Source: Halorubrum sp. CSM-61 (lineage in GTDB: Archaea > Halobacteriota > Halobacteria > Halobacteriales > Haloferacaceae). From it: 64,000 nt of DNA. The position numbers and the translations under genes are program-made. Location of the stretch: positions 320,260 to 384,259 of the forward strand of contig NZ_RJJW01000003.1 in assembly GCF_003781945.1 (NCBI RefSeq). The letters run 5' to 3'. Below the pieces are notes generated by a model. It ran no database searches. It was given only the letters and a program-made list of their open reading frames with translations, and was not told the DNA's origin. This document shows positions 50,262-61,503 of this stretch, in pieces; the first letter of the stretch is position 1; each line of letters starts with the position of its first letter.

Positions 50262-50640
50262 TTGTTTATAACTGATCGAGTAGTGTTGCTGGCGGCGGTT
50301 TATAAGTGATCGACGGTGCTGCGGTGAACAGCTTCAAAGCCCCAGCCGCTAAGGGCGACGCATGCTCGCTGCGCGCCTCACTCGGTCGCTCACGGTGTTC
50401 GCTCCCTCGTTGCGGTGCTTGCGTCCCCTGCGACGCCCTTAGCGGCTGCCCCTTTGAGTCCCACCCGCCCGCAACCGCACAGCGCCTCACGCCTCCCCAG
50501 CCTCGTCGCTGGCGGCGACAGCCGCCAGCGACTCCCTCGCACCGGCGGTTCGCGGCCGCCAATGGCGGCCGCGAACCGGGGCGCGCCACAGCCGTTCATT
50601 CATAAGCGGTCGTCCCCGTCGCTCACGGCTGTTTAAATAT
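50262..50640 (-). repeat. Dispersed structured repeat element, copy 2 (possible ncRNA)
   Basis: An inverted copy of the 4579-5060 element, reading leftward from 50640 and again starting with ATATTTAA. H1 is a 15-bp hairpin (arms 50564-50578 and 50546-50560, loop ATT). H2 (50505-50532) is identical to copy 1. H3 pairs 50434-50456 with 50335-50357: CAAAG/CTTTG, GGG/GGG loop, then 15 perfect pairs. The distal part of H3 is CTAAGGGCG here versus CGAGGAC in copy 1. It begins 48 nt past the stop of a co-directional gene (50689, minus) and has a single 57-nt unit where copy 1 has about 2.5. Confidence 0.85.
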
Positions 50641-50688
50641 CGAACTGTCACCACCGATCTGCAATACTCACTCCCGCACTCGATCAAG

Positions 50689-51684
50689 TTACTCGCCTCC
50701 TTCGACCCGATCGCGCTCTCGCTCCCGCCGTCGGTCCAAGACCAGTTCGAGTCCCTTCCCGGGACCCCCCTCGATCGGCCAGCCCTTCGTGCGCCACTGG
50801 GGCGGCTCGGGTGAGAACTCCGCGCAGGAGCCCGAACACTCCCGGCCGGTCGGGACCTTGTCCTTCGCCGCGCAGTACGGGACGAGCGCTCGACCCTCCC
50901 GGCGGAGTTCGAAGTGCCGACAGTCCGGGCGCATCGTGTCGGCGAAGGAGCGCCACCCCTTCCCGTAGGCGCGCTCGGCGATCTCCAGCCGGAGCGTCTC
51001 GATCTCGGGATCGCGTCGCTCGCTTCCCTGCGGGCCCAGATCGCTCGGGTGCCACGCCACGCTCGCCGCGTCGGCGCGAACCCCCTCGGAGAAGTCGGTC
51101 GCGAGGATGCCGGCCTCGACGGGCATCTCGCGGAGCAGCGCCGGCTCGACGCGCTCGCCGGTCGTCTCGGTCGCGAGCCACGCCTCGTCCGCGAGGCCGG
51201 CCTCCACGTCGTGAGCGAGCTGGTCGGCGAGGCGGTCGGCGGCGGAGCGGTCCAGGTCCGGCTTGTTCTCGATCGCGACGATCCGCTCGACCCAGTCCGG
51301 GTACGGTCGCGTCCGGCGGAGCTGGATCCGGTTGTTCCGCCGGCGCTTCTCGATCAGGCTCCGGCCCGCGGCCCGGTGCACCGCCTGCCGGACGTAGCGC
51401 CACGGGTAGCCGGGGTGCGGGAGCGCGTCGCGGTACCACGCCCACTCGGCCGGGGCGTGGCGCACGACGTGGAGGAGATCGGAATCGATGGTCCGGTCGC
51501 CGAACGCGCGGCGGGCCGCGAACGCCGCCGGATCGACCTCGATCACGACCGTGTCCCAGCGGCGCTTCTTGGTACCGAGCTGGCGGGCGACGACCGCGGG
51601 ACGGGGACCGTCGCTCGGGTGCCACGCGAGCTCGGCGTACCGACAGACGAGGAGCTCGTAGCCGAACTCGGCGTCCGGAGTCAC
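50689..51684 (-). CDS. DUF5787-like protein, candidate Fe-S nuclease
   Basis: A 331-residue haloarchaeal protein. The segment VERIVAIENKPDLDRSAADRLADQL near residue 130 contains an E-x-K pair after hydrophobic strands, as in PD-(D/E)XK nucleases. The C-terminal part holds four Cys (DCRHFEL, VPYCAAK, then ECSGSC), and one Cys lies at the start (LLVCRYAELAW), a layout like the Fe-S site of Cas4/RecB-type nucleases. This is a resemblance, not a proven match. The first start codon at 51684 gives a normal N-terminus. Repeat copy 2 starts 48 nt after its stop. Confidence 0.72.
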   Translation of the reverse strand: MTPDAEFGYELLVCRYAELAWHPSDGPRPAVVARQLGTKKRRWDTVVIEVDPAAFAARRAFGDRTIDSDLLHVVRHAPAEWAWYRDALPHPGYPWRYVRQAVHRAAGRSLIEKRRRNNRIQLRRTRPYPDWVERIVAIENKPDLDRSAADRLADQLAHDVEAGLADEAWLATETTGERVEPALLREMPVEAGILATDFSEGVRADAASVAWHPSDLGPQGSERRDPEIETLRLEIAERAYGKGWRSFADTMRPDCRHFELRREGRALVPYCAAKDKVPTGRECSGSCAEFSPEPPQWRTKGWPIEGGPGKGLELVLDRRRERERDRVEGGE

Positions 51685-52749: not shown

Positions 52750-54099
52750 TCAGTCGTCGTCGCCGGTCGCGACGATCCGCTCGCCGGAGACGAGCCACCC
52801 GTCGTCGTTCGCGCGCTCAGCGATCCTCGGCTGGAACACCCACGCGGCGAGTCCGAGGATCGGGAGCATCGACGCCCCGACGATCGCGTAGCCGACGTGG
52901 AGGTTCGGGAGGAACGCGGCGGAGAAGGCCAGCGGGTAGACGACCCCGCCGACGGTGCCGATCCCACCGACGATCCCGGTGACCGACCCGGAGTTGTCGG
53001 GGAACATCGTCGGCACCTGCGCGAAGATGGCGCCCTCGGAGAACGCGCAGCCGGTCCCGACGAGGAACCCGGCCGCGACGGCGACGTAGATGTTCCCCGT
53101 CAGCCCGGCGAGCGTCATGCCGAACATCGACAGCACCACGAACGAGAGCGTGGCGAACGTCCATTGGTTGCGGTACTCCCCGGCGAAGAAGGGGAGGATG
53201 TCCCGCTCGTTGCGCGCGACCACGTCGCTGACGTAGCCACCGATGGGCCGTAAGAGTCCGGCGGCGACCGAGAACGTCGCGGCGAACGTCGCCGCGATCA
53301 CCACGTCGCCCTGGCCGAACGCCTCGCGGTAGTACGTTCCCAGCCAGCCGTTCATCGCCAGTTCGAGCCCGAACGACATCACGTACGCGACGGAGAGGAC
53401 GACCGCGCCGTAGCGGGTGGCGATGAAGCGCCACTGGTCCCAGCTCACGCCCGCCTTCGTCGCCTCTCGTTTGGTCTCGCTCTTCGCGGCGGCGCCGAAG
53501 ACGTAGTAGACGACCCCGAGCAGCACCGCGAGCACGCCCGTGTAGAAGAACGCCGCCCGCCAGTTCGACGAGGTGGCGAGGAACCCGGTCCCGAATATCG
53601 GGTCGACGTATCCCTCGCCGAAGATCCGCGGGAGCGTGAAGTACGCGCCCAGTCCGGCCCCGGCGTTGCCGATCCCGGCGAAGATCCCCTCAGCGGTTCC
53701 GAGGTTCTCCGCCTCGAACCACTCGGAGACGTGTTGGATGCCGATGACGAACGTGATCCCCGACAGCGACGCGACGATCCGAGAGGCGGTGAACACCTCG
53801 TAGGTCTGTACGAACGCGCTGGCGATCGCGAACGCCCCGACTGTCACGAGCGTCACGCCGCCGGTGACGTCAGCCCCGAACCGGTCGGTCAGCGGTCCGA
53901 CGAGGATGCGGCCGAGGGGGACGGCGACGACGGCCGCGCTCGCCACGATCCCGAGCTGTTGGACAGAAAGACCGAACTCCGCGGCGATGCCGCCGGTGAA
54001 CGGCGCGAACGAGAACCAGATCACGAACCCGAGGTTGAACATCGCCGTCGCGAGGATCAGGTTCCGGTACTTGCCGTACAGCAGGTCGGTCGCCTTCAC
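52750..54099 (-). CDS. narK: Nitrate/nitrite MFS transporter
   Basis: A 449-residue MFS permease with 12 helices. The nitrate signature of helix 5 is seen in [17 protein letters not shown] near residue 140, and the partner helix 11 motif [18 protein letters not shown] near residue 378. The helix 2-3 loop holds [14 protein letters not shown]. Placed next to nasA and nirA genes, it should import nitrate for assimilation. It starts with GTG at 54099, whose first bases overlap the stop of a 54-residue upstream frame (GTGA), suggesting translational coupling. Confidence 0.94.
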
Positions 54100-54260
54100 C
54101 GCGAGACACCCCCTGAGGAACGATCGTTGGCGTCTGGACGATCGCGAACCTCGATCCCCCGATCGACCGCGTTCTCACGCCGGGGTGCGCACCTCGGCGA
54201 GAGTTTGGCGGCGTCGGAGTCCGGATCGCACACCGATTGCGATTCGAATTGGGTGAGCAT
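54096..54260 (-). CDS. Short frame coupled to narK, 54 residues
   Basis: ATG at 54260 to TGA at 54096-54098, whose bases overlap the narK GTG (GTGA). The product (beginning [21 protein letters not shown]) is acidic and then basic, with two Cys. A TATA-like box TTATTAATATC (minus strand, 54292-54303) lies about 37-40 nt before the ATG, so a transcript would begin just ahead of this frame. It may be a regulatory leader peptide, a small protein, or only the consequence of a random open frame. No function is claimed. Confidence 0.5.
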
Positions 54261-54589
54261 GGTATTTCTTACAAAACAACAACACAGACTAGATATTAAT
54301 AAACAAATTGGTTGACAAAATTATATTCTAGGCGGCCGTGGTGTGCTATCCTCAAGAAGCGTTTTCACAGAGAATCATTCCCAGATAAATGAGAGAAATT
54401 AAAAAATGCGAATCTAATCGATCTATTCTCGAAAGAACAACGACCTGTCCGATCGTTCGCTGATCTGTTTTACTTCTTTAATCACGATTCCATGGGTACT
54501 GGGCACACGATTACACGAGAGACGGCGACGCGACTGGTCGGAAGGAGACGGACTGCAGGCAGAAAGGCAGCCAGCGGCGGGCGACCCGA
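54261..54589. other. AT-rich intergenic region between narK leader and nasA1
   Basis: About 330 nt, clearly more AT-rich than its neighbours. It holds the narK-side TATA element near 54295 and several A/T runs (for example AATTAAAAAATG near 54400). I see no RNA or protein gene with support here. It may contain binding sites for nitrate or ammonium regulators. Confidence 0.5.
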
Positions 54590-56728
54590 TCAGGAGTACG
54601 AGCCGGTCCCGTTCGGCTGACCCGAGCCGCCGGCGATATCGGTAGTGGTACCGTTCGGGGCCCGCAGCGCGACCGCGCACTGCTTGAGGTTCGGTTCGGC
54701 GGACTCCGGGTCCGCGGCGGACAGCGTGAGCCGGTTCGCCGCCGGGTTGTGGACCGGGAGCCAGACGAGCCCCGGCGGCACGTCGGCGTCGGGCGCGACC
54801 CGGACCGTCACCGCGGACCGGCGGGACTCGATCACCGTCTCCCCCCGGTCGAACGCCCGCAGGTTGTCGGCGATCGTTTCGGGGTGCATCCGCGCCGCGG
54901 TCGCGCTGTCGCCGTCGTCACCGGTACCGTCGTCGAACCGGGTCCGGATCCCGGTGTTGTACGCGTCCGGACGCCGACCGGTGGTGAGCGTGAGCGGGTA
55001 CGACTCGTCGATCGGCTCCGGCACGCCCCCGTGAGTCGCGCTCGAGAACCGCGCTCGGCCGGAGTCGGTGGGGAACGACCACGGGCTCTCGCCGTCGTTC
55101 TCGGAACCTCCGGCGTGGTACCGATACCCGCCTTCGGCGGTCCCGTCCGGGGCCGGCCACCGGACGGCCAGCTCCTCCGCGAGCCGGTCGTAGGAGATCC
55201 CCGAGAGGTCCGCCGTCGTGCCGCGCGTCAGCGCGCCGACCTCGTCGAACAGCGCCTCGGGGTCGAGCCGCGTCGACTCGAACAGTTCGGGGACGACCCG
55301 GTCGGCGACCGCGCCGATGACGTCCACGTCCCGCCGGACGCCCTCCGGGGGCTCTCGCGCGGCGGTGACCCGAGAGACGCGGCGCTCCATGTTCATCACC
55401 GTCCCCTCGGACTCGCCCCACGTCGCCGCCGGCAACACCACGTCCGCCAGCTCGACGGTGTCGGAGCGGAACGCGTCCTGGACGATCAGGAACGTGTCCT
55501 CGAGCGCGCTCTCGACGTGGTTCGCGTCCGGCATCCCCGCGGCCGGGTTCGTCGCCACCGTCCAGCAGACGTCGACGTTGTCCCGCGCCAGCTCGTCGAC
55601 GATCCGGACGAACCCCGGGCCGGACGAGTCGGGGAGCCGGCGCAGGGGAACGCCCCACGCGTTCGCGATCGCCTTGCGGTGCGCCGCGTCGTCGAACGGT
55701 CTGTACCCCGGCCACGACGACTTCGAGGCGCAGACGCGGTTCCCCATCGAGTTCGCCTGCCCGGTCAGCGAGAACGGCCCGCTGCCGGGGCCCACGTTCC
55801 CCGTCGCGAGACAAAGATCGATCAGCGAGCGGGCGGTTCCGGTACCCTGCACGCTCTGATTGACGCCCATTCCCCAGTACACGAGCGTCCGATCGTCGAA
55901 CGCCGCGGCGAGTTCGGAGACGCGCTCGACCGACACGCCGGCGGTCTCGGCGGCAACGTCGACCTCGGGCAGCGATCCGACTATTGCCTCGAACCCCTCG
56001 GTGTGCCGCTCGACGAACTCCCGGTCGACGAGCCCGTCCTCGACGACCTGCGCGAGCACGGCCCGCGCTAAGGCCAGATCGGTCCCCGGCTCCGGTCGGA
56101 CGTGGCAGTCGGCGTCGGCGGCGGTCGCGCTCTCGACGGGGTCGACGACGATCAGTCGGCCGTCGTCGTCGCTCGCGCTGTCGGCGATCCACCGGTACAT
56201 CACCGGATGCGCCACCGCGGGGTTCGCGCCCCAGATCACGTGCGTCTCGGCGTCGGGGATGTCCTCGTAGGTCGGCGGCGGCGCGTCGCTCCCGAACGCC
56301 CCCATATACGCCTGCACCGCCGAGGCCATACAGAGGGTGGTGTTGGCGTCGTAGTACCGGGTGCCGAAGCCACCGCGCGCGAGCTTCCCCAGCGCGTACG
56401 CCGCCTCGTTCGTCTGCTGGCCGCTTCCCAAGACCGCGACGTTGTCGTTCCCGTCCCTGAGCGCCTCGACGATCCGCACCGAGACCGTCCCGAGAGCGGT
56501 GTCCCAGTCCGTCGGCCGGAGCGTCCCGCCGCGGCGGATCAGGGGTTCCGTCAGCCGCTCGCCGCTCGGCTCGACCGTCTCGCGGACCCCCCGACTGCAG
56601 GTCTCGCCCCCGTTCGTCGGGTGACCGTCGTCGCCGCGGACGCCGAGTCGCCCGTCGTCGCCGGCGCGCTGTCGGTAGCCGCACCCGACCGCGCATCGCA
56701 TACACGTTGTTGGCCTTCGATCAGTCAT
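54590..56728 (-). CDS. nasA: Assimilatory nitrate reductase, molybdopterin type (paralogue 1)
   Basis: A 712-residue Mo-bis-MGD enzyme reducing nitrate to nitrite. The [4Fe-4S] cluster is bound by C9, C12, C16 and C44. The likely molybdenum ligand Cys lies in YDANTTLCMASAVQAYMGAFG near residue 145. Other family landmarks are VIWGANPAVAHPVMYRWI near residue 180, VYWGMGVNQSVQGTGTARSLIDL near residue 290, ANSMGNRVCASKSSWPGY near residue 330, and ATNPAAGMPDANHVE. There is no signal peptide, so it acts in the cytosol and probably uses ferredoxin. It is followed by a second nasA with long near-identical stretches. Confidence 0.95.
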   Translation of the reverse strand: MTDRRPTTCMRCAVGCGYRQRAGDDGRLGVRGDDGHPTNGGETCSRGVRETVEPSGERLTEPLIRRGGTLRPTDWDTALGTVSVRIVEALRDGNDNVAVLGSGQQTNEAAYALGKLARGGFGTRYYDANTTLCMASAVQAYMGAFGSDAPPPTYEDIPDAETHVIWGANPAVAHPVMYRWIADSASDDDGRLIVVDPVESATAADADCHVRPEPGTDLALARAVLAQVVEDGLVDREFVERHTEGFEAIVGSLPEVDVAAETAGVSVERVSELAAAFDDRTLVYWGMGVNQSVQGTGTARSLIDLCLATGNVGPGSGPFSLTGQANSMGNRVCASKSSWPGYRPFDDAAHRKAIANAWGVPLRRLPDSSGPGFVRIVDELARDNVDVCWTVATNPAAGMPDANHVESALEDTFLIVQDAFRSDTVELADVVLPAATWGESEGTVMNMERRVSRVTAAREPPEGVRRDVDVIGAVADRVVPELFESTRLDPEALFDEVGALTRGTTADLSGISYDRLAEELAVRWPAPDGTAEGGYRYHAGGSENDGESPWSFPTDSGRARFSSATHGGVPEPIDESYPLTLTTGRRPDAYNTGIRTRFDDGTGDDGDSATAARMHPETIADNLRAFDRGETVIESRRSAVTVRVAPDADVPPGLVWLPVHNPAANRLTLSAADPESAEPNLKQCAVALRAPNGTTTDIAGGSGQPNGTGSYS

Positions 56729-56923
56729 TTGCGTTTATAGTGCGCAACCGTCTCGATTAAACAGATAATCACATTCATTCGTACGCTGTTCTCGTGTCGA
56801 TCTGGCTCTCCGTTTTTTCCCGTCCGGTATAATTCTTTTTTCGCATGAATAACCGTGTAGTATACTGTGGGCGGAACGCTCGCGGCTCGCTCGTCCGCCG
56901 GAACCGGGACGGGGGCAGGGAAG
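56725..56923 (-). promoter_or_regulatory. nasA1 promoter region
   Basis: ATTAAAC at 56756-56762 (TATA box on the minus strand) is 30 nt before ATG 56728, giving a leaderless nasA1 transcript. This separates nasA1 from the upstream nasA2 and suggests it has its own promoter. TTATAATTCTT-like A/T runs lie near 56830-56842. Confidence 0.6.
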
Positions 56924-59038
56924 TCAGTCGTCCGAGGAGGCGGGCTCGCCGTCCGCGGTGGGACGACCCTCGTGGACCAACGGGTTCGACGGTTGCGGCG
57001 CCCGGACGTCGACCGCGCACTGCTTGAGGTTCGGCTCGTCGGACTCGGGATCGACGACCGGGAGCGTGAGGACGTTCACGGCCGGGTGGTGGATCGGCAG
57101 CCACACCACCCCCTTCGGCACGCCGTCGTCCGGGTTGACCCTTATCGTCGCGGACCCCCGCCGCGACGAGACGACCGTCTTCCCGCGGTCGAACGCCTCG
57201 ATGTACTCCAGCGTCGTCTCCGGGTGGATCCGTGCGGTCGGAGGCCCGTCGGCCTCGACCCCGCGGCTCCGAACCCCGGTGTTGTACGCGCCGGGCTCTC
57301 GGCCGGTCGTTAAGGTCAGCGGGAACTCGTCGTCGGTCGGCTCGGCGAGGCCGTCGTGGACCCCCGTCGAGAACCGCGCGCGGCCCGACGGCGTCGGGAA
57401 CGACCACCCGTCGTCGCCGACGTAGCGGTACCCGCCCTCCGCCTCGGGCGACGGCGCGGGCCACCTGACCGCGCGCTCCGCCTCCAGCCGGTCGTAGGAG
57501 ATCCCAGACAGATCCGCGGGCGTCCCCGCCGTCAGCTCGCGGAGCTCGTCGAAGGTCGATTCCGGCGAGACCGCGGGTTCCGGAAACAGCTCCCCGTCGA
57601 TCGCGGCGCCGATGGCGACGATGATGTCGAGATCCTGCTTGATCTTCGGGGAGGTCTCCGTGGCGGCGCGGACCCGAGAGACCCGGCGCTCCATGTTGGT
57701 GACGGTCCCCTCGGACTCGCCCCACGTCGCCGCCGGCAGCACCACGTCGGCCAGCTCGACGGTCTCGGTCCGGAACGCGTCCTGTGCGACGAGGAAGGCG
57801 TCTTCGAGAGCGCCCTTGACGCGGCTCGCGTCGGGCATCCCCGCGACCGGGTTCGTCGCCACCGTCCAGCACACCTCTGGCGGGCCGTCCGCGACGGCGT
57901 CGACGATGCCGACCGGTCCCGGACCCGGGTCGTCCGGGAGCCGGCTCCGCGGGATCCCCCACGCGTCGGCGACGAACCGCCGCTCTTCCGGATCAGTGAA
58001 CCCGCGTTGACCCGGCCACGTCCCCTTCGACGAGCAGACGCGAGTCCCCATCGAGTTCGCTTGGCCCGTCAACGAGAACGGTCCGCTTCCGGGTCGGAGG
58101 TTCCCCGTCGCGAGACACAGGTCGATGAGGGCTCGCGAGGTCGCCGTCCCCTGCACGCTCTGGTTGACGCCCATCCCCCAGTAGACGAGCGTCGGGTCAG
58201 TCACGGCCTCCGCGACGCGCTCGACGGTCTCGACCGAGACCCCGGCGGCCTCGGCGGCCTCTCCCACCGAGGGCAACGCGTCGACCGTCGCCTCGAACCC
58301 CGTCGTCGCCTCGGCGACGAACTCGCTGTCGACGGCGTCGTCGGCGACGATCTGCGCCAACACCGCCCGGGCGAACGCCAGATCGGTGCCGGGGTCCACC
58401 TGGACGTGGCAGTCCGCGTCGTCGACGGTCTCGCTCTCGACGGGATCGACGACGATCAGCTCGCTGTCGTCGTCGCTCGCGCTGTCGGCGATCCAGCGGT
58501 ACATCACCGGATGCGCCACCGCGGGGTTCGCGCCCCAGATCACGTGCGTCTGTGCGTCGGGAACGTCCTCGTAGGTCGGCGGCGGCGCGTCGCTCCCGAA
58601 CGCCTGGTAGTAAGCGGTGACGGCGGAGGCCATACAGAGGGTGGTGTTGGCGTCGTAGTACCGGGTGCCGAGGCCGCCGCGAGCGAGCTTCCCAAGCGCG
58701 TACGCCGCCTCGTTCGTCTGCTGGCCGCTCCCCAACACGGCGACGCCGTCCGAGCTCTCGGCGAGGGCGTCCTCGATATGCGAGACGACGGTCCCGATCG
58801 CCGTCTCCCAGCTGGTGGGCACGAGGGTGCCGTCTTCCCTGATAAGGGGCCGCGTCAGCCAGTCGCCGTCCGGGTTCGCGGTCTCGTCGATGCCGCGCTG
58901 GCAGGCGAGGCCGCGGTTGACCGGATGCGAGGCGTCGCCGCGGACGGTGTCGAGCCCGTAGTGGGTGGCGTACCCCTGCTGGAGGTGCCCGCACCCGACG
59001 GCACACCGCATACACGTGGTCGGCGTCCACTCGCTCAT
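56924..59038 (-). CDS. Assimilatory nitrate reductase, molybdopterin type (paralogue 2)
   Basis: A 704-residue paralogue of the nasA gene beside it. Cluster ligands are C9, C12, C16 and C46, and the Mo-ligand region is YDANTTLCMASAVTAYYQAFG. It keeps the same landmarks (GANPAVAHPVMYRWIADSASDDD; WGMGVNQSVQGTATSRALIDLC; MGTRVCSSKGTWPG). Start ATG 59038 gives MSEWTPTTCMRC, matching MTDRRPTTCMRC of paralogue 1. A longer frame to a GTG at 59137 is possible but not favoured. Its ATG overlaps the stop of a 38-residue frame (ATGA). Whether both enzymes use nitrate, or one another substrate or condition, is open. Confidence 0.93.
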   Translation of the reverse strand: MSEWTPTTCMRCAVGCGHLQQGYATHYGLDTVRGDASHPVNRGLACQRGIDETANPDGDWLTRPLIREDGTLVPTSWETAIGTVVSHIEDALAESSDGVAVLGSGQQTNEAAYALGKLARGGLGTRYYDANTTLCMASAVTAYYQAFGSDAPPPTYEDVPDAQTHVIWGANPAVAHPVMYRWIADSASDDDSELIVVDPVESETVDDADCHVQVDPGTDLAFARAVLAQIVADDAVDSEFVAEATTGFEATVDALPSVGEAAEAAGVSVETVERVAEAVTDPTLVYWGMGVNQSVQGTATSRALIDLCLATGNLRPGSGPFSLTGQANSMGTRVCSSKGTWPGQRGFTDPEERRFVADAWGIPRSRLPDDPGPGPVGIVDAVADGPPEVCWTVATNPVAGMPDASRVKGALEDAFLVAQDAFRTETVELADVVLPAATWGESEGTVTNMERRVSRVRAATETSPKIKQDLDIIVAIGAAIDGELFPEPAVSPESTFDELRELTAGTPADLSGISYDRLEAERAVRWPAPSPEAEGGYRYVGDDGWSFPTPSGRARFSTGVHDGLAEPTDDEFPLTLTTGREPGAYNTGVRSRGVEADGPPTARIHPETTLEYIEAFDRGKTVVSSRRGSATIRVNPDDGVPKGVVWLPIHHPAVNVLTLPVVDPESDEPNLKQCAVDVRAPQPSNPLVHEGRPTADGEPASSDD

Positions 59039-59151
59039 CGGCGGTGCGACTCCTCCGTGGTGATCCCGCGCCCCGCTAGAGCGGTCGATCCGCCGGCGGT
59101 TCCGATCCGTGACCGGTCCGAAACAGGTGGCCCGCACACGTGGTTTCGCAT
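59035..59151 (-). CDS. Short frame coupled to nasA paralogue 2, 38 residues
   Basis: ATG at 59151 to a TGA at 59035-59037 that overlaps the ATG of nasA2 (ATGA). The product starts MRNHVCGPPVSDRSR and is basic and polar. A TATA-like AATTATAGC (minus strand, 59187-59195) lies about 39 nt before the ATG, so the transcript should start just upstream of it. It is similar in arrangement, but not in sequence, to the frame before narK. Confidence 0.45.
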   Translation of the reverse strand: MRNHVCGPPVSDRSRIGTAGGSTALAGRGITTEESHRR

Positions 59152-59677
59152 CAGTTAGTTTCTGAATATCACATACCCAATCAGCGCTATAATTGTTTTG
59201 GTATGGATGAATAGCGCGTATTAGAAAAGGAACGCACAGTAATTCAAGGTATTTCTAAATAAACATGCGCATACTTGGGCGGGCGTCGACGCCCACGCAC
59301 GCGCCGCCGACGCACCCGCGTGGGTCCTCGATGCCGGACGGGAACGCGTGCGGTCCGAGACGCTCGGCGAACGGCGATCTCCGCGACCAACGGGTCGATC
59401 ACGCGACGCGTGACCCATTTGTCGCGAACCGTGACGCTCGCTCGGAGCGGACACCCGATCGATACGAGTGAACTCCGACTCGCGCCACACTGCGACGGCC
59501 CGGTTGAATTTGTGAACTTCTCTCCGGCTACGCTACCCCATTTATAATTTCGTTGGTTATAGATAGAAATATATTCTGCTCTGAGCGACGCCTTTCCGAT
59601 CGCTTCGTTATGCTCTCTATTTTGTGATTTTATAAAAACCGAACTATTTTATGATTCCCTGTAAACTTCTACCCGAT
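59152..59677. other. Divergent intergenic region between nasA2 and nirA
   Basis: 526 nt. Both ends are AT-rich with TATA-like boxes for nasA2 (near 59190) and for nirA (TATTTTATG at 59646-59654). The middle (about 59264-59470) is GC-rich and, in one frame, reads like worn coding sequence (GVDAHARAADAPAWVLDAGR), perhaps a relic. No intact gene is supported. Confidence 0.5.
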
Positions 59678-59743
59678 ATGGACCACCATTCGGCCAATAT
59701 AAACCCGGAACAGTTCCACACCAACGAGGAGAGTGATCGGTGA
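59678..59743 (+). CDS. Short frame coupled to nirA, 21 residues
   Basis: ATG 59678 to TGA 59741-59743; the TGA overlaps the nirA start (TGATG). It codes for a small acidic and His-rich peptide (MDDHHSANINPEQFHTNEES and two more residues). A TATA box (TATTTTATG, 59646-59654) lies 24-32 nt before its ATG, exactly where a leaderless transcript would begin at this frame. It is the best-supported of the short frames before the nitrate genes. Confidence 0.55.
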   Translation: MDHHSANINPEQFHTNEESDR

Positions 59744-61503
59744 TGGCCAACAAAAAGGAGGACTGGAAGTCGGAGCTGTACGGCGACGAGGTGCGTGAGA
59801 AGCTACTGGAGTTCGCGGAGACGGGGCTCGAGTCGATCCCGGAAGACGAGCGCGAGAAGTGGTTCACCCGATTCAAGTTCTGGGGGGTGTTCCACCAGCG
59901 CTCGGGCCAGGAGGGGTACTTCATGATGCGGCTGACCAACGCCAACGGGATCTTAGAGCCCGGTCAGCTCCGCGCGATCGCCGAGGTCGCCCGCGACTAC
60001 GCGTCGGGGCCGGTGTCGAACCCCGAGTTCGGCGACGGGTGGATCGACCTGACGACCCGACAGTCGATCCAGCTCCACTGGATCGAACTGGAAGACATCC
60101 CGGAAATTTGGGAGAAGCTCGAATCGGTCGGGGTGACCACTCGCTCCTCGGGCGGGGACACGATGCGGAACATCTCCGGCAGTCCGGTCGCCGGCAAGGA
60201 CGCGAACGAGGTGATCGACACGCTCCCGCTGCTCGAACGGTTCCAAGAGGAGATCCGTGGCGACGACGACCTCTGTAACATGCCCCGGAAGTTCAACATC
60301 AGCGTCTCCGGGACGCCCGAGGGCGGCGCGCAGGACGCGATCAACGACATCGGGCTCGAACCCGCAAGCAAGCAGATTGACGACGAGGGGACGCTCGGCT
60401 TCAACGTGCGCGTCGGCGGCGGGCTCGGCGGTCGCGAGCCCCGGGTCGCTCGCCCCCTCGACGTGTTCGTCACGCCGGACGAGGCGTACGAGGTCGTCCG
60501 CGGCTTCGTCGAGCTGTACCACGACCACGGCGATCGGCAGGTCCGCGCGAAGAACCGCTCGCGGTTCTTCGTCGACGAGCACGGCACCGAGTGGATCCGC
60601 GACCTGCTCGAGGAGGAGTACGTCGACGCCGACCTCCGGACCGCCGGCGAGGACATCCGCGACGAGTACACCTACAACGCCGGGTCGGCCCCCGAGGAGG
60701 GTAAGAAGGACTACACCGGCGTCCACGAACAGGGCGACGGCAAGCGGTACGTGGGCCTCAGCGTCCCCGTCGGCCGGCTGCCGGCCGAGGAGGCGATCGA
60801 GCTCGCCGACCTCGCCGACGAGTACGGCTCCGGCGAGATCCGGCTCACGCGCCGGCAGAACCCGATCATCGTCGACGTGGAGCCCGATCGGGTGGACGAG
60901 CTGCTCGCGGAGTCGCTGCTCGCGAAACACCGCCCGGAGCCGAACCCGTTCGTCCGGGGTGCGATGGCCTGTACCGGCACCGAGTTCTGCTCGATCGCGC
61001 TCGTCGAGACCAAGACGCGGATGGCGACGATGCTCCGCTGGTTCCGCGAGAACGTCGACCTGCCCGACGACGTCGAACAGCTGAAGGTCCACTTCTCCGG
61101 CTGTACCGCCGACTGCGGCCAGGCCAACACGGCGGACATCGGCCTGCTCGGCATGCGGGCGCGGAAGGACGGGGAGATGGTCGAGGCGGTCGACATCGGC
61201 GTCGGCGGCGGGATGGGCGAGGACCCCTCCTTCGTCGACTACGTCCGACAGCGGGTGCCGGCCGACGAGGCCCCAGGCGCGATCCGGAACCTGATCGAGG
61301 CGTTCGGGGAGCGCCGGGCGCCGGGCCAGACGTTCCGCGAGTGGGTGGCCGCGACCGACGACGAGACGCTCGCGGAGCTGTGCGAGCCCGAGGAGACCGA
61401 CTACGTCGATCCGACGCTCACCGACGCGAAGCAGTCGTGGTACCCGTTCGCCGAGGAGGGGACGACGGCGGCGGATCCAGAGGTGGTCTCGTCCGATGAC
61501 TGA
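59743..61503 (+). CDS. nirA: Ferredoxin-nitrite reductase (NirA)
   Basis: A 586-residue siroheme enzyme that reduces nitrite to ammonium. The [4Fe-4S]-siroheme ligands are C410 and C416 (ACTGTEFCSIA) and C454 and C458 (SGCTADCGQAN). The two half-repeats of the family are seen in NPEFGDGWIDLTTRQSIQLHWI near residue 90 and YGSGEIRLTRRQNPIIVDV near residue 361. Ferredoxin is the likely electron donor. ATG 59743 (MANKKEDW) is favoured over the preceding GTG. Divergent from the nasA genes, with a coupled leader frame. Confidence 0.96.
   Translation: MANKKEDWKSELYGDEVREKLLEFAETGLESIPEDEREKWFTRFKFWGVFHQRSGQEGYFMMRLTNANGILEPGQLRAIAEVARDYASGPVSNPEFGDGWIDLTTRQSIQLHWIELEDIPEIWEKLESVGVTTRSSGGDTMRNISGSPVAGKDANEVIDTLPLLERFQEEIRGDDDLCNMPRKFNISVSGTPEGGAQDAINDIGLEPASKQIDDEGTLGFNVRVGGGLGGREPRVARPLDVFVTPDEAYEVVRGFVELYHDHGDRQVRAKNRSRFFVDEHGTEWIRDLLEEEYVDADLRTAGEDIRDEYTYNAGSAPEEGKKDYTGVHEQGDGKRYVGLSVPVGRLPAEEAIELADLADEYGSGEIRLTRRQNPIIVDVEPDRVDELLAESLLAKHRPEPNPFVRGAMACTGTEFCSIALVETKTRMATMLRWFRENVDLPDDVEQLKVHFSGCTADCGQANTADIGLLGMRARKDGEMVEAVDIGVGGGMGEDPSFVDYVRQRVPADEAPGAIRNLIEAFGERRAPGQTFREWVAATDDETLAELCEPEETDYVDPTLTDAKQSWYPFAEEGTTAADPEVVSSDD

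Follow-up and report, generated by a model that had tools for sequence, protein, structure and literature searches.

The narK gene of Halorubrum sp. CSM-61 follows a short upstream open reading frame (uORF) that ends on the narK start codon, and of 80 haloarchaeal narK loci compared, 77 have an upstream frame ending no more than 14 nt from the narK start. These loci have kept the frame open, its stop at the narK start and a Shine-Dalgarno (SD) motif near the end of the frame; the encoded peptide appears to evolve almost neutrally. We consider it probable that the frame is a ribosome-delivery uORF, on which ribosomes would load, terminate at the narK start and reinitiate there. Termination-reinitiation is already known from Haloferax volcanii. 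Its class-wide use before the separately promoted genes of one pathway is undescribed in the literature searched, a body that excludes subscription papers and preprints and in which no publication on uORFs upstream of nitrate genes in haloarchaea was found.

Short coupled frames in the nitrate cluster

We analyzed a 64,000-nucleotide stretch of Halorubrum sp. CSM-61 DNA, hereafter the window, which contains narK, two nasA genes and nirA, each with a short frame overlapping its start codon:

52750-54099, minus strand: narK, NarK-type nitrate/nitrite MFS transporter, GTG start
54096-54260, minus strand: narK upstream frame, 54 codons, ATG to TGA, GTGA overlap with the narK start
54106-54113, minus strand: SD-like stretch GGGGGTGT within the final codons of the narK upstream frame
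54296-54303, minus strand: TATA-like box TTTATTAA; its centre lies 39 nt upstream of the ATG of that frame
54590-56728, minus strand: nasA1, second assimilatory nitrate reductase copy (NF041323, 1109.2 bits, above cut-off)
56725-56778, minus strand: frame before nasA1, 17 codons, ATGA overlap with the nasA1 start
56924-59038, minus strand: nasA2, assimilatory nitrate reductase (NF041323, 1195.9 bits, above cut-off)
59035-59151, minus strand: nasA2 upstream frame, 38 codons, ATGA overlap
59678-59743, plus strand: nirA upstream frame, 21 codons, TGATG overlap
59743-61503, plus strand: nirA, ferredoxin-nitrite reductase type (best match NF007125, 444.4 bits, below the cut-off of 594; named with the help of gene context)

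The TGA of the narK upstream frame (54098-54096) overlaps the GTG of narK (54099-54097) on the minus strand. The initial annotation had described this frame as following a TATA-like box with a short leader and stopping on the narK start codon, and our analysis confirmed the description: with the archaeal TATA-to-start spacing taken at its usual value, transcription is predicted to start near 54272, giving a leader of 12 nt before the 54-codon frame and its GTGA overlap. The 39-nt distance from box to ATG is common to the Halorubrum narK group to which the window belongs. At the position of the SD-like stretch, which is degenerate in the window, five of the eight closest relatives (L002-L009) carry GGAGGTGA.

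Because the best match of the narK product in NCBIfam, TIGR00886, scored 177.8 bits, below the cut-off of 311.7, the gene was named from its best family together with gene context. Its GTG start is secure, because no in-frame start was found upstream of it in the window and the next methionine, residue 20, lies only within the first hydrophobic stretch. An in-frame N-terminal extension of narK was rejected, since no start precedes the GTG and in close relatives the open frame extends only two codons beyond the gene (451 codons, against 449 residues); in the window it remains open further (474 codons), but without an in-frame start there. We also set aside a fusion by programmed frameshifting, given that the peptide is not conserved and that four of 77 upstream frames share the reading frame of narK but are separated from it by a stop. 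Elsewhere in the window, positions 50266-50690 contain several overlapping frames, on either strand, that are unlikely to be genes and whose translations look repetitive; the segment may be non-coding and rich in repeats.

The similar arrangements that had been claimed before nasA2 and nirA are present, and a third precedes nasA1. Both NasA proteins passed the cut-off of NF041323, the NCBIfam model of haloarchaeal assimilatory NasA. The nasA1 leader varies among relatives. Two of them (L092 and L093) have a single 32-codon frame that reaches nasA1; in two others (L095 and L096) the early frame is cut short, and another frame that begins close to its stop reaches the nasA1 start; in the window, an ACG stands in place of the relatives' early ATG and the 17-codon frame is kept. 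The leader in the window (56725-56860), L095 and L096 has the look of a uORF in decay that a relay of frames has repaired. Two nasA copies of other genomes (G045:C1:190357-192468 and G050:C9:60547-62658) contain one internal stop each, which suggests that some species are losing one gene of the nasA pair.

Conservation of the coupled frame and comparison with other genes

We searched the genus Halorubrum for NarK and obtained matches in 27 of 52 genomes, from which 19 genes were kept as NarK-like (about 59% identity or more), the weaker MFS matches and paralogues below this level being left out. An upstream ATG or GTG frame whose stop overlaps the narK start was present in all 19; these genes split into groups with unrelated leader sequences. 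Random loss of the frame next to an intact narK, which would have spoken against the initial annotation, was thus not seen when the upstream regions were compared for frame and overlap. A 20- to 21-codon frame likewise precedes all 17 nirA genes of the window's type (69-100% identity) in the genus, and the nasA2 upstream frame is kept in nine of nine Halorubrum loci compared, a set that leaves out L069, where the N-terminus is split. Within this one genus there are two NarK groups, about 62-67% identical, and a NarK copy of Natronomonas sp. (L097) is 84% identical to that of the window. These groups and this copy suggest a transfer of the nitrate cluster.

The comparison was widened to the haloarchaeal class with 80 fetched, named narK loci, of which the 79 with a readable start were counted together with the window, giving 80; one locus without an N-terminus (L157) was left out. 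Under the rule that a frame has at least 20 codons and ends between -12 and +14 nt relative to the narK start, 77 of the 80 have a coupled frame, whereas 23.7 are expected from dinucleotide shuffles of the leaders. The close stop and start of a termination-reinitiation pair are thus found at these 77 loci. Of 31 named genera, 30 include one or more loci with the frame, and in 28 every locus has it. The three loci that lack it under the rule are L139, which is a metagenome-assembled genome (MAG); L102, whose first frame ends some 60 nt too soon and where a relay of three short frames can be read by eye; and L141, a miss that hinges on the choice of start, as a frame sits near its other start. 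The overlap type varies from clade to clade: a stop offset of +1 (NTGA) is the commonest (43 of 77), +7 occurs in 17, and other offsets make up the rest. The same arrangement is seen before narK of Halocatena salina (L171), where the narK start was annotated independently.

A single frame of this kind is not improbable. It occurs in about 30% of shuffled narK leaders (23.7/80) and before 122 of 456 other genes, so that about 27-30% of comparable leaders hold one, which speaks for a chance open frame in GC-rich DNA. The excess over chance lies in the conservation, 19/19 in the genus and 77/80 in the class with 30 of 31 named genera, and in a neutral simulation on the tree of the eight Halorubrum narK frames all eight stayed open in 29 of 5,000 runs, indels being uncounted. 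These data make chance scarcely credible as an explanation, and the preservation of the frame lends indirect support to the idea that it is translated.

The other genes just mentioned come from 1,083 genes called in the narK loci, with starts from a simple gene caller; the controls cover genes of at least 150 codons that have 100 nt or more of unoccupied DNA in front of them. Any coupled frame was present before 71/78 narK, 46/61 nasA and 22/38 nirA genes, compared with the 122/456 other genes, and a TATA-proximal coupled frame before 63/78 narK, 27/61 nasA and 19/38 nirA genes, compared with 21/456. The very small p-values of the latter comparison overstate the independence of the loci, because these are phylogenetically related. 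Among the 12 other families with at least five promoter-proximal members, ten scored 0, one 1/5 and one 2/7. The 2/7 family, in the flanks of L091-L170 (e.g., L170 1988-3677), is ammonium-transporter-like, a name read from its sequence, and other nitrogen genes may share the coupled-frame design.

We also used a stricter, start-blind test, in which the nearest TATA box and then the first start after it are taken and the frame is ignored; its signal is weaker. In this test, 43 of 58 narK genes were coupled (18.3 expected) compared with 14 of 65 other genes (9.7 expected); of the 78 narK genes entered, 15 were uncoupled, 5 scored leaderless, 11 had no start and 4 had no box. For nirA the result was 10 of 17 (3.7 expected), and for nasA 17 of 31 (10.7 expected), a weaker excess. 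Under a lax rule (at least 12 codons, several candidate starts allowed) a frame was found in 68 of 69 nasA loci, not a strong number, the controlled comparisons being the other-gene counts and the start-blind test. Under the same rule nine of 42 nirA loci were without a frame, and in some genera (e.g., Halosimplex and Halobacterium) nirA has none and seems to be leaderless instead. Thus the proposal that nitrate assimilation genes share a design of short coupled frames stands for the window and its relatives, but the frame is not universal before nirA and its excess before nasA is weaker.

Peptide, promoter and leader RNA

We compared the narK frames codon by codon with the last 8 codons removed. 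The dN/dS was 1.02 in Halorubrum A (7 sequences), 0.65 in a Haloarcula-like clade (7), 0.72 in Halorubrum B (4) and 0.94 in Natrialba (3), and 2.9 in a Haloferax set of two sequences only; that of narK itself in the same loci was 0.08-0.16. If the product of the frame were a small protein with a function, or a leader peptide acting through its sequence as in amino-acid attenuation, purifying selection or a conserved peptide would be expected, and some data do lean this way. Members of a clade partly share their N-terminal residues, M[FLY]xQF in the window's narK group and MW.HIQ in the Haloarcula group, and the nasA2 frame has a dN/dS of 0.70 in its first half versus 1.26 in its second. A start MRxxVCGPPxSDRSR is partly shared by the peptides before nasA2. 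However, the narK frames of four clades, at 0.65-1.02, do not show the purifying selection typical of a functional small protein; their peptides are unalike between clades and range from 22 to 98 codons; the pooled composition is flat, without a dominant residue (the highest is Ser at 10.9%) and with a net charge of about zero, not acidic; and no frame peptide matched an NCBIfam model. We therefore regard a peptide with a function of its own as unlikely. Over their whole length, the nirA frame gave a dN/dS of 0.64 and the nasA2 frame 0.77, and a weak constraint on these two peptides is possible.

Bacterial trp and his attenuators also place a short leader-peptide frame before a metabolic gene, and in this respect the narK frame resembles them. 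Unlike them, it showed no regulatory codon run, conserved peptide or excess leader structure, its dN/dS being about 1 and its composition flat. The suggestion of the initial annotation that the act of translation, and not the peptide, may be what matters is supported by this near neutrality.

In many narK loci, the frame starts 27, 32-33 or 39 nt after the TATA centre, clade by clade. At the usual archaeal spacing, this would place the transcription start either on the first codon of the uORF or 5-12 nt upstream. In 65 of 77 narK loci the frame start has a TATA-like box ahead of it, a figure that, like the clade distances, is favoured by our picking the uORF start among in-frame starts by TATA score; the assignment of the box in Haloferax is uncertain. 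Such a box precedes narK itself in only 3 of 77 loci, and an internal leaderless narK promoter was rejected as the main route. Slightly upstream of the TATA boxes, for example at about 54310-54320 in the window, we noticed an element resembling TGT(A/C/T)AACG (TGTMAACG). By a rough count it occurs at 19/78 narK and 9/38 nirA genes compared with 18/456 other genes, and it is a possible operator of a nitrate regulon.

An SD motif of at least 5 nt was present before 62 of 78 narK genes, compared with 74 of 456 other genes. The SD inside the upstream frame that characterizes coupled pairs is thus seen in most narK loci, the motif of the window being a degenerate case. These positions bear on the idea that the frame is open solely because ribosomes covering the leader protect it from premature termination or decay, its end at the narK start being incidental. 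On this idea, too, the frame would be open and its peptide neutral, but it predicts neither stops within -12 to +14 in 77/80 loci nor an SD placed for the downstream start in 62/78, and we give it little credence.

The leader of about 170 nt would be unusually long for a mostly leaderless haloarchaeon, judging from the share of leaderless transcripts in H. volcanii (PMC4983044), and a structured leader (riboswitch or attenuator) might control narK with the frame as a by-product. No Rfam match at gathering thresholds was found in window positions 53900-60000. The folding energy of the leaders was close to that of shuffles (mean z -0.22, SE 0.13, n=76, one long leader being left out of the folding comparison), and shuffling the leader left the SD-start block about as accessible as before (difference 0.003, SE 0.009). 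Neither a known RNA family nor structure beyond chance was thus seen in these tests, and control by a structured leader is very improbable.

A probable route for ribosomes to narK

Because the frame stays open, ends on or beside the narK start and encodes a peptide that seems not to matter, it probably exists to carry ribosomes. Transcription would begin at the uORF start codon or about 5-12 nt before it, as the TATA box implies, and ribosomes would load on the uORF by the leaderless or near-leaderless route dominant in haloarchaea. Its translation would yield a peptide of no consequence. Having reached the stop on or next to the narK start codon, the ribosomes would terminate and, helped by the SD motif near the end of the frame, reinitiate on narK.

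Parts of this pathway have been described in H. volcanii. According to Huber et al. (2019; PMC6728339), reinitiation occurs there at overlapping genes, and the SD is non-functional for de novo initiation at 5'-UTRs but contributes to reinitiation without being essential to it: when it was removed, reinitiation fell by about 20 to 80% in six of seven gene pairs and rose in the seventh. In this species 72% of the protein-coding transcripts are leaderless (PMC4983044). With a non-working 5'-UTR SD and mostly leaderless transcripts, a leadered narK would therefore be poorly translated unless ribosomes came from a leaderless frame, and we infer that the uORF provides them. The coupled pairs described in PMC6728339 resemble the narK arrangement in their NTGA or TGATG overlap, the SD inside the upstream frame and the haloarchaeal translation apparatus; their upstream partner, however, is a normal gene, whereas that of narK is a promoter-proximal, near-neutral short frame that seemingly serves only the downstream gene.

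The idea of a uORF "delivering" a ribosome to a coupled gene appears in the pertinent section of a 2025 review (PMC12548453). There, too, a short frame would serve to get the following gene translated, but the section treats such uORFs in general terms and with mycobacterial MIRUs, while the narK type is class-wide in archaea and attached to one pathway. Short frames in haloarchaeal leaders of 150-250 nt were listed for H. volcanii in 2016 (PMC4983044); the section describing them gives 16 frames of 15-31 amino acids, lists no nitrate gene and does not discuss overlap with the downstream start. In the available text of a study on nasABC regulation in H. mediterranei (PMC8143581), the terms "transcription start", "UTR" and "leader" are absent.

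The same device before nasA2, nasA1 and nirA suggests that expression of the nitrate-assimilation set may depend on translating short frames. A far-reaching extension would make nitrate assimilation in Halobacteria a translational regulon, in which each separately promoted gene would be expressed only via a peptide-neutral leaderless uORF and nitrogen status would tune the efficiency of termination-reinitiation; we regard this as doubtful.

A haloarchaeal gene with a long leader needs another route for its ribosomes, since most starts are leaderless and, in H. volcanii reporters, the SD is unused at 5'-UTRs. A class-wide, sequence-neutral frame would be a natural case of selection on translating and not on the product, and the differing overlaps and relays provide natural variants for testing reinitiation. 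In haloarchaeal nas genes, a translated stretch may have been mistaken for "promoter" or untranslated leader, both by gene callers and in work on regulation.
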